DNA from: Clostridia bacterium
GTDB taxonomy: Bacteria; Bacillota_A; Clostridia; Christensenellales; Borkfalkiaceae
DNA: 18,243 nt
Reading direction: 5' to 3'
Assembly: GCA_017504735.1 (NCBI GenBank)
Contig: JAFVQP010000037.1
Location: 1 to 18,243, forward strand
A model generated the notes under the pieces. The model searched no databases and was not told where the DNA came from. It was given only the letters and a program-made list of their open reading frames with translations. Both the position numbers and the translations under genes were made by a program. Below are positions 6,970 through 10,815 of this stretch, one piece after another. Numbering within the stretch: position 1 is the stretch's first letter; the number at the start of each line of letters is the position of its first letter.

Positions 6970-8625
6970 ATGCTTTCGGATATCGAGATTGCGGAGAGCG
7001 CGGAATTGATTGACATCCGCGAGGTGGCGAAAACCTTAAACCTCACGGAAGAGAATTTAGAATTATACGGAAAATATAAGGCGAAAATCACCTTACCCAA
7101 AGATGCGAAGCGAAATGCAAAGCTGATTTTGGTAACGGCAATCAACCCTACCTCGTCGGGGGAAGGGAAGACCACCGTATCCATCGGGCTTGCGGACGGT
7201 TTGTCGAAGCTGGGTAAACGTGCGTGTCTTGCTTTGAGAGAGCCTTCTCTTGGCCCTGTCTTTGGTATCAAAGGCGGCGCGGCAGGCGGCGGTTATTCGC
7301 AAGTGGTGCCCATGTCCGAAATTAATTTACACTTTACGGGTGACTTGCACGCGATTACCGCGGCAAACAACCTCTTGTGCGCTTTGATGGATAACCACAT
7401 TTTCCGTGGAAACGAATTAAAGATTGATACGAATAACATCTACTTCCACCGTTGTATGGACATGAACGAGCGTCAGCTTATCAACGTAACCATCGGTGGT
7501 AAGGGTAGAGGTGTAGAACGCGAAGACCACTTTGACATCACGGCGGCAAGCGAAGTAATGGCGGTGTTGTGTCTTGCGACGGACATTGACGATTTGAAAA
7601 AACGCCTTGGTAATATCATCGTTGGCTTAAACACGGATGGTGAGTACGTACGTGCAAAGGATATCCCCGGTGCGGTTGGTTCGATGGCGGTACTTTTGAA
7701 GGATGCGATGAAACCCAACCTTGTACAAACGTTGGAACATACCCCTGCAATCATTCACGGCGGACCTTTCGCAAACATTGCACACGGCTGTAACAGTGTG
7801 CAGGCGACCTATGCGGCGATGAGCCTTGCGGAATATGCGGTTACGGAAGCAGGTTTTGGCGCGGATTTGGGCGCGGAAAAATTCCTCGACACAAAGTGTC
7901 GGGCGGCGGGTATCGAACCTGACTGTGTGGTAATCGTTGCTACGGTAAAAGCGTTAAAGCTTCACGGCGGCGCGGATAAAACCACTTTATCGGAAGAGAA
8001 TTTGGTTGCCCTTGAAAAGGGTATGCCCAACCTCTTAAAGCACATTGAAAACATTAAAAACGTATATAAAAAGCCCGTTGTTGTGGCAATGAATAGATTT
8101 TTCACGGATACGCAGGCGGAAACCGATTTTGTTATTGAAACGGTGAAAAAAGCAGGCTCGACGGCGGTATTTACCGACGTATTCTTAAAAGGCGGCGAGG
8201 GTGGTAAAGAACTCGCGGCTGAGGTTGTAAAGGCTTGTGAAATTCCTTCGAAAATGGAATTCCCTTACGATTTGAGCGAGGGTGTTTGCGAAAAGATTGA
8301 AAATATCGCAAAGAAAATTTACGGTGCGGACGGTGTAGATTTCTCCGAAGAAGCACTTGCAAAAATTAAGACGATTGAAGAAAAGGGCTGTGGAAACTTG
8401 CCCGTGATCATCGCAAAAACGCAATATTCCTTGTCGGACAATGCCGAACTTCTTGGCAGACCCGAAGGGTTTAGAGTAACGGTGCGTGATATCGTATTGA
8501 AGGGCGGCGCAGGCTTTATCGTGGCGATTGCCGGTAAAATCATGCTGATGCCTGGCTTGGGCGCACATCCTGCAGCGGAAAAGATTGACTTGCTCTCCGA
8601 CGGCACCATTGTTGGGTTGTCGTAA
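6970..8625 (+). CDS. fhs: Formate-tetrahydrofolate ligase
   Basis: This enzyme makes 10-formyl-THF from formate, THF and ATP. It is the entry to the folate C1 pool for purine synthesis, and the first folate step of the Wood-Ljungdahl methyl branch in acetogens. At 551 residues it has normal family length (~556). Marks are the phosphate-binding [19 protein letters not shown] (60-78), the following [20 protein letters not shown] and the [18 protein letters not shown] segment. The ATG is preceded by AAAGGAGAG. It has its own promoter with a palindrome at the start site. No folD, metF or other C1 gene is adjacent, so this copy is probably monocistronic and says little about acetogenesis. Downstream lie 555 bases of repeats, with no clear terminator. 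Confidence 0.97.
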
Positions 8626-8658: not shown

Positions 8659-8782
8659 GTAAACGCATATACACATCACATTTCATCGTCGTGCTTGCGT
8701 TTTGTTTTGGTCATGTACGCTTATGTACACTCCCTGCAACAAAGCCGCGCACTCCTTGAACTGCTCGCATCTATGCATTTAC
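8659..8782 (+). repeat. Family B element, copy 1, with terminal inverted repeats
   Basis: A 124-base unit is bounded by GTAAACGCAT (8659-8668) and ATGCATTTAC (8773-8782), inverted repeats with one mismatch. Inside are the hairpin TGTAC-GCTTAT-GTACA and the shared CTCCC and CTGCTCGCATCTATGC blocks, also found at 16918 and 17057. GGTGTCTAA occurs directly before it (8650-8658) and again at 8788-8796, five bases past the right end, like an imperfect target duplication. No protein is encoded. Confidence 0.7.
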
Positions 8783-8837: not shown

Positions 8838-8914
8838 CACACTTTACAAGGTCAAGCGGAACGCTTGCGCTCCCTCGCTTCGCCTTGAACTGCTCGCAAC
8901 TACGCCGTTTTACC
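8838..8914 (+). repeat. Family B element, degenerate copy 2
   Basis: The order is the same as in copy 1: a hairpin (CAAGCG-GAA-CGCTTG, 8853-8867), a CTCCC block (8870-8874), then CCTTGAACTGCTCGCA (8883-8898), identical to 8754-8769, and a final CTACGCCGTTTTAC. The left inverted repeat is not recognisable. A further stem, CCGTTT/AAACGG (8905-8926), follows. Confidence 0.5.
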
Positions 8915-8941
8915 CTTATGAAACGGGTGCGCGTTATTACG

Positions 8942-9156
8942 GTGAAGTTGTGGCAAGCCACAGTGAAGTTACGCCGTTGGCGTAGTGAAGTTGACTACGT
9001 CAGTGAAGTTTTTACTTTGTAAAAGTTATGGCTAATATAAATAACAGCCACAACTTGCCGATAGGCAAACTTCACTTCGCGGAACGCAAAACTTCACTTG
9101 GAACAAACTTCACTTTCACGAAGTGAAAACTTCACTTATGAAATAAAATTTATCAT
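8942..9156 (+). repeat. Family A fishbone array of nonamer boxes and hairpin spacers
   Basis: Left-hand boxes (A)GTGAAGTT lie at 8942, 8962, 8984 and 9002. Right-hand boxes AACTTCACTT lie at 9068, 9090, 9106 and 9128, and are exact reverse complements. A central imperfect stem, AAGTTATGGC (9023-9032) with GCCACAACTT (9047-9056), closes on an AT-rich loop. Every spacer is itself a small hairpin: GTGGC-AA-GCCAC, ACGCC-GTT-GGCGT, GAC-TAC-GTC, TTTAC-TTT-GTAAA, TTGCC-GATA-GGCAA, GCG-GAA-CGC, TTG-GAA-CAA, and TTTCAC-GAA-GTGAAA. If the boxes pair inside-out, the whole becomes one spine with a side hairpin on each side at every joint. No protein is encoded. It ends 25 bases before glnS. Confidence 0.88.
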
Positions 9157-9159
9157 AAT
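9131..9159 (+). promoter_or_regulatory. Possible glnS promoter with its -35 inside the last family A box
   Basis: TTCACT (9131-9136), 17 bases, CATAAT (9154-9159) is a moderate SigA-like promoter. Its -35 lies within the final AACTTCACTT box. It would give a leader of ~15 bases. No better candidate is visible between fhs and glnS. Confidence 0.4.
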
Positions 9160-9180
9160 ATAGTAGCTAAGAGAGAACTT

Positions 9181-10815
9181 ATGAAAACGATTGAAGCAAC
9201 AAATTTTATTGAACAAATTATCAATGATGATATCGAAAATGGTAAGATTAACGCGGTGCAAACCCGTTTCCCTCCTGAACCCAACGGATATCTTCATATC
9301 GGGCATATCAAGAGTATGCTTGTAAACTTTGGTACTGCAAAGAAATACGAGGGTAAATGCAACCTTTTCTTCGACGATACCAACCCTTCCAAGGAAAAAA
9401 CGGAATTCGTTGACGCTATCCGTAAGGATATTTCTTGGGTAGGTTACGATTGGGCAAAGGAAGTGTACGCCTCCGATTTCTTCGATGTTATTTATGAATA
9501 CGCAGAAAAATTGATCATGGACGGAAAAGCGTTCGTATGCGACCTTTCTCCTGAAGAAATTAGTGCGCATCGCGGCAGCCTTACCGAAGCGGGTAAGGAA
9601 AGCCCTTACAGAAACCGCAGTGTGGAAGAAAACCTGCAACTTTTCCGTGAAATGAAGGCAGGGAAATATCCCGACGGCAGCAAGTGTTTGCGTGCAAAAA
9701 TCGATATGGCGTCGCCCAACATGAATATGCGCGACCCCGTTATCTATCGTATTTTGCGTTGTACGCATCACCGTACGGGCGACACCTGGTGTATTTATCC
9801 TATGTACGATTATGCGCACCCGATTTGCGACTACTTGCAGGGGGTTACGCATTCCCTTTGCACCCTCGAATTTGAGGACCACAGACCTTTGTACGATTGG
9901 GTAGGGATCAACCTCGGCTTTGAGCCGAAGCCCCGTCAAATCGAATTTGCCCGTCTTGCGGTAACCAACACGGTAATGTCCAAGCGTTACCTTAAGAAGT
10001 TGGTGGAAGAAGGGTACGTACATGGTTGGGACGATCCTCGTATGCCTACGGTGGCAGGTCTTAGAAACCGTGGTGTACCCCCGGAAGCATTGCTTGACTT
10101 CTGCACGAAAATCGGTATTGTAAAGGCAAATTCCGAATGTCAGCTTTCCTACCTGGAAGCTTGCATCCGTGATAACCTCAACGAAAATGCAGAACGTGCG
10201 ATGGCTGTGTTGGAGCCTTTGAAGGTGACCATCACGAATTACGAAGGTGAGGAAATGCTCGATGCGGCAATTCACCCCTTAAAACCTGAACTTGGTACGC
10301 GTCAAGTTGCGTTCTCGAACGTGGTATATATTGACAAAGCGGACTTTGCAATGGTACCCCCTCCCAAATATCAACGCTTGAAACCCGATGGGTACGTGCG
10401 TTTGAAGGGTGCGTATATCATTCACTGCGACGAAGTTGTACAAGATGAAAATGGGGAAGTGGTAGAACTCAAGTGTTCGTACGTTCCCGAAAGTAGATCT
10501 TCCAACGATACCAGCGGTTTGAAGGTGCGCGGTACCATTCAATGGGTAGATGGCAAGACGGGTGTGGATGCAGAAATCCGCAAATACGGCGTATTGCTTA
10601 AGGATGCGGAATATGCAGGGCAGGACTTTGGCGAACGTATGAACTTGGACAGCGAACATATCTTCCAAGGTAAAGCGGAACCTTATCTTGCGGAAAGCGA
10701 AGACGGTAAGCAATTCCAGTTGATGCGCATCGGCTACTACAAGAAGTGTGTGGATGCAAACGGAAAGCTTGTCTTGTCGGAAATTGTGTCTTTGAAGGAT
10801 AATTTTAACAAGTAA
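9181..10815 (+). CDS. glnS: Glutaminyl-tRNA synthetase
   Basis: This class I aminoacyl-tRNA synthetase of 544 residues attaches glutamine to tRNA-Gln. The ATP site is PPEPNGYLHIGH (31-42, HIGH signature) and TVMSKR (264-269, KMSKS equivalent), followed by GWDDPRMPTVAGLRNRG, which is characteristic of GlnRS. The C-terminal beta-barrel anticodon-binding region is present and the length is standard (~550). Many Bacillota make Gln-tRNA indirectly through GatCAB and lack glnS, so this gene may reflect an old transfer; nothing in its composition marks it as recent. The start is preceded by AAGAGAG, a weak ribosome binding site eight or so bases away. The 5' side is occupied by the family A array. 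Confidence 0.97.
   Translation: MKTIEATNFIEQIINDDIENGKINAVQTRFPPEPNGYLHIGHIKSMLVNFGTAKKYEGKCNLFFDDTNPSKEKTEFVDAIRKDISWVGYDWAKEVYASDFFDVIYEYAEKLIMDGKAFVCDLSPEEISAHRGSLTEAGKESPYRNRSVEENLQLFREMKAGKYPDGSKCLRAKIDMASPNMNMRDPVIYRILRCTHHRTGDTWCIYPMYDYAHPICDYLQGVTHSLCTLEFEDHRPLYDWVGINLGFEPKPRQIEFARLAVTNTVMSKRYLKKLVEEGYVHGWDDPRMPTVAGLRNRGVPPEALLDFCTKIGIVKANSECQLSYLEACIRDNLNENAERAMAVLEPLKVTITNYEGEEMLDAAIHPLKPELGTRQVAFSNVVYIDKADFAMVPPPKYQRLKPDGYVRLKGAYIIHCDEVVQDENGEVVELKCSYVPESRSSNDTSGLKVRGTIQWVDGKTGVDAEIRKYGVLLKDAEYAGQDFGERMNLDSEHIFQGKAEPYLAESEDGKQFQLMRIGYYKKCVDANGKLVLSEIVSLKDNFNK

Follow-up and report, generated by a model that had tools for sequence, protein, structure and literature searches.

Mirrored box-hairpin arrays in gut Clostridia and their association with genes of IVP/S23p four-helix-bundle proteins

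The gap between the genes fhs and glnS of a Clostridia bacterium (Borkfalkiaceae; contig JAFVQP010000037.1) holds a mirrored series of short boxes with a hairpin in most spacers. What is this array, and to what larger family does it belong? We examined it in the window, i.e., the whole 18,243-nucleotide (nt) stretch, and compared it with loci of related and distant genomes.

The array between fhs and glnS

The array lies at 8942-9135 in the fhs-glnS gap, its last box 45 nt from the glnS start, and a 57-nt centre separates four forward from four reverse boxes (Table 1). The window contains 11 exact copies of GTGAAGTT where 0.79 were expected, and at least 11 copies were seen in 0 of 200 shuffles. 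A first-pass annotation had described eight mirrored boxes, four on each side of an imperfect central stem; all of them were located at the positions claimed, the inside-out box pairs that it named were correct, and the stem contained one mismatch. Its statement that all eight spacers are perfect hairpins held for six, namely the three of the left arm, the two flanking the central stem, and 9115-9127 (stems of 3-5 bp). The other two were marginal: 9079-9087 forms a 3-bp stem (GCG-GAA-CGC) within a 14-nt spacer whose ends pair poorly, and 9098-9106 (TTG-GAA-CAA) reaches 3 bp only by borrowing one base of the next box.

Table 1. Positions of the array components and neighbouring features in the window.
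Feature	Position	Strand	Details
fhs, formate--tetrahydrofolate ligase	6970..8625	+	Upstream neighbour; NCBIfam 818.8 bits, cut-off 652
Left arm, four forward GTGAAGTT boxes	8942-8949, 8963-8970, 8985-8992, 9003-9010 (arm 8942..9010)	+	
Left-arm hairpin spacers	8950-8961, 8971-8983, 8993-9001	+	
Centre	9011..9067	.	Hairpins 9011-9023 and 9056-9067 flank the central stem
Central stem GTTATGGCT/AGCCACAAC	9025-9033/9046-9054		One mismatch; loop of 12 nt at 9034-9045
Sub-threshold Rfam Gut-1 match	9064..9137	-	31 bits, cut-off 50, E 2e-4 to 5e-4
Right arm, reverse-complement boxes AACTTCAC	9068-9075, 9090-9097, 9106-9113, 9128-9135 (arm 9068..9135)	-	
Right-arm spacers	9079-9087, 9098-9106, 9115-9127	-	First two marginal, third perfect
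glnS, glutamine--tRNA ligase	9181..10815	+	TIGR00440 650.7 bits, cut-off 425.8

The RNA fold of 8930-9165 had a z score of -5.6, and 0 of 200 shuffles folded equally well. With RNA parameters, the fishbone fold reached -62.6 versus a minimum of -69.5, in which some spacers are paired across; with DNA parameters, the values were -34.9 and -43.2, and the DNA minimum retained the box pairing and most of the left-arm and central hairpins. The strong RNA folding and the location just before glnS speak for a structured RNA that acts after transcription, either as a long mRNA helix excised by RNase III or by providing RNA box sites for an IVP protein (see below), with mobility being secondary. This explanation also draws on two published precedents, the listing of Gut-1 among probable noncoding RNAs (in the available text of PMC2864571) and the cutting by RNase III of 23S rRNA intervening sequences (IVS) with S23p genes (in the available text of PMC4990558).

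Two further features of the window were recorded. The fhs-glnS gap holds a second, unlike repeat at 8754-8776 and 8883-8905, CCTTGAACTGCTCGCA..CTA.GC preceded by GGTCATGTACGCTTATGTACA, and similar sequence is present in the corresponding gaps of five other loci (L138, L148, L150, L164, and L166). At its start (positions 1-445), the window contains the terminal (3') part of a 23S rRNA gene and, behind it, 5S rRNA.

A dispersed family with self-complementary spacers

Copies elsewhere, for which the annotation had recommended a search, were found in the genus of the window and in many other Clostridia genomes, in line with its suggestion of a mobile repeat. Contigs were scanned for three GTGAAGTT boxes with gaps of 6-24 nt, yielding at least 118 stretches. 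Among the matches listed, 70 of 118 stretches had at least two distinct hairpin spacers in a strict test, and all 70 were from Clostridia except L055 and L105. The 48 listed stretches that lacked two such spacers were set aside as chance pattern matches; some were tandem repeats of other phyla (L014, L033, and L053), and others were short or degenerate true arrays (e.g., L098). Arm orientation, again among the matches listed, was plus-then-minus in 47 of 77 arrays, minus-then-plus in 1, and one-way, with no mirrored arm, in 29. Open reading frames of at least 150 aa contained 11 of 75 listed arrays, compared to 1176 of 1500 random placements.

Each of 15 array-bearing genomes had 4-104 three-box matches, and the reversed-pattern control gave 0. 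In the 57 genomes of the window's genus (glnS identity of 79-97% in long matches), 14 had a two-box match, with counts of 1-68. In one congener, G245, the sequence shared by twelve copies essentially starts at the left end and stops at the last box or slightly past it in a terminator; two of them (L323 and L329) are 88.8% identical over 206 nt. The inspected copies of G245 and G233 start 4-46 nt past a stop codon. Of 49 elements, 17 had a terminator-like hairpin no more than 75 nt from their last box (12 on the sense strand), versus 20 of 226 distal windows. This is a family of gut Clostridia with many copies per genome, patchy among species of one genus, mostly intergenic and often located by terminators. 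There is good support for reading the window array as a gene-less element that is dispersed and apparently mobile.

The same architecture was observed with other boxes, namely GTGAATTG, GTGAAAT, GTGATGT, GTGATAT, and GCGATAT, and a box-blind search of the collected loci revealed it also with ATATCAC, TCGATAT, GCGATAT, GTGAATT, and AACATCA. The ATATCAC array at L029 (2538-2952) has 18 hairpin spacers, in which a three-hairpin unit recurs about six times in alternating variants, indicating unit amplification. In G266, a two-hairpin CAATTCAC unit is present in four tandem repeats. Both cases agree with growth by box-hairpin units, as the annotation had envisaged. The one-sided GTGAAGTT arrays of G237 (L335-L350), several of which are by eye directly 3' of intrinsic terminators, share a longer common tail with more hairpins and sometimes CGGTTATT.ATATCGA, i.e., they belong to a longer composite repeat.

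REP sequences form hairpins, carry a short conserved tag, and are scattered through intergenic regions, and the arrays resemble REP/BIME elements in being dispersed, intergenic, hairpin-forming, and arranged in inverted pairs. They could therefore be ordinary repeats of this kind, or repeats borne by a Y1 (HUH) transposase; indeed, Y1_Tnp was above the cut-off in 20 of 57 congeners. However, among the eight most array-rich congeners (metagenome-assembled genomes [MAGs], which may be incomplete), no Y1_Tnp was found at E 0.001 in six, the match was weak in G233, and it was clear in G298 only. Moreover, the box is constant while the hairpins differ in sequence within one array. We consider this origin highly improbable.

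Do the spacers vary without keeping their complementarity? Stems of at least 4 bp were formed by 184 of 334 distinct GTGAAGTT spacer cores, compared to a mean of 17.7 (maximum 28) in 100 rounds of per-core shuffling. These self-complementary spacers, together with the 8-nt boxes, do not fit a CRISPR array, in which long direct repeats alternate with unique spacers that are not palindromic. Covariation was analyzed with 256 cores remaining after near-duplicate removal, using the eight core lengths that were each represented by 12 or more cores. This analysis omitted 34 loci, of which 33 bore names of other phyla and one was Butyrivibrio L003. The outer two positions, in which as many as four Watson-Crick types occurred, were paired at 0.89-1.00, in contrast to 0.38-0.87 (mostly 0.4-0.6) after the 3' arms were re-dealt. 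Pairing at inner positions dropped in some lengths, to 0.74-0.81 for 11-nt cores and 0.57-0.61 for 15-16-nt cores. Pairing is thus kept while the spacers change, and this strong covariation across GTGAAGTT arrays supports maintenance of the structure, for which the annotation had suggested selection.

Pair types and loops carry information on the nucleic acid concerned. We oriented 54 mirrored elements by their left end and retained 400 pairs, taken from hairpins with only standard or A-C pairs at the positions counted: 389 were Watson-Crick, 4 GU, and 7 AC, showing no excess of wobble pairs on the transcript strand. C(GNA)G triloops, which are unusually stable in DNA, were counted for nine box types after omission of the same 34 loci and of L363-L392. 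Of 211 triloops, 79 had this form when read on the strand opposite to the box, and 6 when read on the box strand; the bias was weak for GTGAATTG (1 of 10 versus 1 of 10). The scarcity of wobble pairs and the strand-specific triloops make it more probable that the hairpins are read in single-stranded DNA than that they function in RNA, and we take them to be used in single-stranded DNA or renewed as perfect palindromes. The option of a structured noncoding RNA, raised by the annotation, is disfavoured by the same two observations. A mirrored arm, needed for a long mRNA helix, is moreover missing from the 29 one-way arrays mentioned above, and the array positions differ between neighbouring species. 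An RNA acting post-transcriptionally is thus unlikely to be the primary explanation.

The near-perfect Watson-Crick arms without wobble could also have a purely mutational origin, if template switching makes or corrects palindromes between boxes that are themselves slippage repeats, with neither an element nor a partner; the tandem amplification of units fits this as well. It leaves unexplained the constancy of the boxes, the strand bias of the loops, and the distribution of GTGAAGTT core lengths, with few cores of 8 or 10 nt (3 and 12, respectively) compared to 7, 9, 11, and 13 nt (25, 58, 37, and 54).

IVP/S23p genes at arrays and insertion sites

The main new result, which goes beyond what the annotation had observed, is a partner gene of the arrays. 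Arrays are located beside genes for four-helix-bundle proteins of the 23S-rRNA-IVP/S23p family (PF05635; IVP below). Three examples tested were assigned to TIGR02436 ("four helix bundle protein"), and one of them is related to PDB 2rld (E 3e-22). PF05635 was detected in 21 of 57 genomes of the window's genus (20 above the cut-off), in 45 of 54 genomes outside the genus that had been chosen for carrying GTGAAGTT arrays, and in 0 of 14 control genomes. Other contexts are on record: 18 IVP genes are located in cas loci according to the available text of PMC3936711.

At least two box-hairpin units were present within 400 nt of the IVP gene at 22 of 45 loci, compared to 1 of 45 windows located 600-1000 nt away; at least three units were present at 12 of 45 loci and in 0 distal windows. 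This set is what remained of 58 IVP loci after 13 were lost, their frame being missed by the motif. In a larger set, at least two units were near 61 of 117 IVP genes, and, for loci with a distal control at 600 nt or more, near 25 of 45 versus 1 of 45. These counts are without L018, L052, L098, and L114, which were found via their arrays; all four are within the full set of 121 and three within the controlled set of 48, for which the numbers are 65 of 121 and 28 of 48 versus 1. The 121 also include L300, L312, and L321, second fetches of L018, L114, and L098 that were kept off the tree described below. In the window's genus alone, 15 of 27 IVP loci had units versus 0 distal windows. The distal control of L254, 450 nt away only, contained three units. 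Among 30 IVP loci fetched from other phyla, 26 were readable with a model, and 24 of these 26 had no arrays (control 0). The other two, L369 and L383, show box-hairpin runs with GAGTTAA (2 units) and AACCCTA (3 units), possibly further box types.

In a tree of 118 IVP proteins, the box labels were clustered: with nine groups, 31 changes were needed versus a mean of 59 after shuffling, and 0 of 200 shuffles were as low. Restricting the count to the 55 proteins assigned any of seven box types gave 10 changes. The tree is built from short proteins and has many open forks, the box groups were drawn up by hand from k-mers, and 56 of 118 proteins carry the label "none" (no nearby array). MKDSE-type IVP was found with GTGAAGTT in 11 of the 13 members of its clade (the other two had no box call), GHYSL-type with GTGAAAT/ATGAAAT in 9 of 12, LSK-type with GTGAATTG/ATGAATTG in 7 of 11, and the KGR-type clade with GCGATAT in 3 of 3. 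A second clade is associated with GTGAAGTT (L244, L246, L271, and L274), and GTGAAGT is present in two clades. The RTGATAT group showed no clustering on this tree (84 of 500 shuffles as low). In 11 of 15 protein pairs, dN/dS was 0.01-0.14, showing purifying selection; the other four were saturated.

As judged from these sequences, the box type tracks the IVP subfamily, and IVP is likely a functional partner of the arrays, although co-inheritance without binding could produce the same tracking. Neither the box types that follow IVP types nor the purifying selection on IVP is explained by a mutational origin, which as a sole cause is quite improbable; template switching may well act jointly with mobile-element spread. 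Among the eight most array-rich congeners, a matching IVP type was found in only two (G227 and G299) and any PF05635 in four, suggesting that IVP is unneeded there, was lost after spread, or is absent from the MAGs.

Comparison of sites, made between species, related the window array to gene-bearing elements. In 33 sequences of the fhs-glnS gap, five contained a PF05635 gene between box arms, with the box differing among these congeners, two contained an array alone (the window and L138, the latter with GCGATAT), and 26 had no clear array in the strict test; degenerate box runs were seen by eye in the gaps of L161 and L156. GTGAAGTT arms enclose an IVP gene in L221 (G299) and L227 (G227), which share one site that we take to be between def and fmt. 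The sequence behind the IVP gene of L227, CAGCCACAATTTTTGC..GCAAAAACTTCAC, parallels the window centre, CAGCCACAACTTGCC..GGCAAACTTCAC, and the 12-nt loop in the window stands where L221 and L227 carry the gene. Complementary arms with an IVP gene were found in L207, L209-L211, L217, L221, and L227, and the window has such arms without the gene. In a second arrangement, a complete mirrored array lies just upstream of the IVP gene (L018, L052, L098, L114, L309, L315, and L317). A tandem duplication of the right arm was noted in one IVP-bearing GTGAAGTT element (L322, G009).

Both in its arms and in its centre, the window array agrees with GTGAAGTT elements of the genus that carry IVP, and it is best explained as a gene-less derivative: with a probability of roughly 0.6, it is a MITE-like copy from a mobile-element family whose full versions bear IVP. 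MITEs, too, are short gene-less copies that retain the ends of a gene-bearing element, and a relation by internal deletion to an element with the same ends was found here. Differences from MITEs are that the gene-bearing copies encode a four-helix-bundle protein (TIGR02436) and no transposase, and that a target-site duplication was not established. A candidate duplication, CTTATGAAA at 8915 and 9135, recurs at 9178; in the copies compared, no convincing target-site duplication and no clean junction pair were found.

A second site, on the 3' side of the class II aldolase gene, was readable in 28 of 30 congener loci and by eye mostly consists of the stop codon followed by a terminator. Here, again by eye, a GTGAAGTT element separates the stop codon from the terminator in L393, the terminator is followed by GTGAATTG elements in L394 and L404 and by an ATGAAAT array in L414, and L396 has a degenerate array. 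Both sites thus differ in array presence between species; a strain-level pair of empty and filled sites was not established by these between-species comparisons.

Known systems and a possible mode of spread

The annotation's statement that no named class fits did not stand, since Rfam Gut-1 (RF01706) has the same architecture: short constant boxes (GUGAAAU) with self-complementary spacers. Gut-1 was described by Weinberg et al. 2010 (PMC2864571) as "human gut only"; it is known as a 77-nt motif, and the available text of that paper mentions no mirrored arms, IVP gene, or mobility. The window shares the hairpin spacers, its boxes are GTGAAGTT, not GUGAAAU, and it remained under the cut-off of the Gut-1 covariance model (Table 1). 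In a search of 18 loci, the ATGAAAT array just upstream of an IVP gene at L215 passed this cut-off with 51.9 bits, showing that the wider family overlaps Gut-1, and six other IVP loci matched below it (L205, L206, L212, L214, L230, and L098). The GTGAAAT-box array type is Gut-1. In the open-licence PMC literature, we found no link of box-hairpin arrays, Gut-1, and IVP.

According to the available text of PMC4990558, 23S rRNA IVS have complementary borders, may carry an S23p gene, and are suspected of mobility. The elements described here resemble them in having complementary arms around a gene of the same family, sporadic occurrence, gene-less or decaying forms, and a suggested mobile origin. 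They differ in that they are intergenic on the mRNA side rather than in rRNA helices, have arms of boxes and hairpins, and reach many copies per genome; the window array, between fhs and glnS, is not inserted in an rRNA helix. They look like an intergenic relative of the 23S rRNA IVS.

PF05635 resembles Avd of diversity-generating retroelements, as noted in the available text of PMC10053308. Those elements combine Avd with a reverse transcriptase; here, in contrast, a search for RVT_1 found none in the eight most array-rich congeners (MAGs, which may be incomplete), and mobilisation by reverse transcriptase was rejected. One locus, L225 (G281:C10:97296-98654), has a PF05635 match below the cut-off (21.5 bits) and a reverse transcriptase frame approximately 400 nt downstream; it looks like a diversity-generating retroelement with Avd.

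How might a gene-bearing element with gene-less copies spread? We propose that a full element has a pair of arms, in each of which copies of one short box alternate with hairpins. The arms would be reverse complementary in their boxes and enclose the IVP/S23p gene; alternatively, a complete mirrored array would lie just upstream of it. The boxes are probably recognised by the IVP protein, of which a relative with a solved structure forms a ring of five. The hairpins may act in single-stranded DNA: once they are extruded, spacer length would be irrelevant and the boxes would be gathered, so that the ring could bind them, e.g., at replication forks, and could help placement beside other hairpins such as terminators. 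Integration at intergenic sites, often adjoining hairpins such as intrinsic terminators, would be performed by host enzymes or another partner, which we propose because no transposase or reverse transcriptase gene was found inside the examined copies. Copies without the gene would then be more numerous than those with IVP and persist longer. We offer the single-stranded-DNA mechanism as a reasoned guess, and we infer IVP binding to boxes and the integration chemistry from the arrangement of the elements. More broadly, and tentatively, somewhat short of an even chance in our estimation, these elements may form a class of mobile elements with neither transposase nor reverse transcriptase, in which a ring-forming IVP/S23p protein recognises extruded single-stranded box-hairpin arms and has diversified into subfamilies together with the box; Gut-1 and the rRNA IVS would be two faces of this class.

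S23p/IVP proteins have no known function according to the available text of PMC4990558, and Gut-1 has so far been a metagenome motif without context. One dispersed element tying the two together, with a box that changes with the protein, would provide both with a specific partner that is open to testing. Many of the hairpin-rich stretches between genes in gut Clostridia, in the leaders, as here before glnS, and at the 3' ends of core genes, would be explained by it as well.
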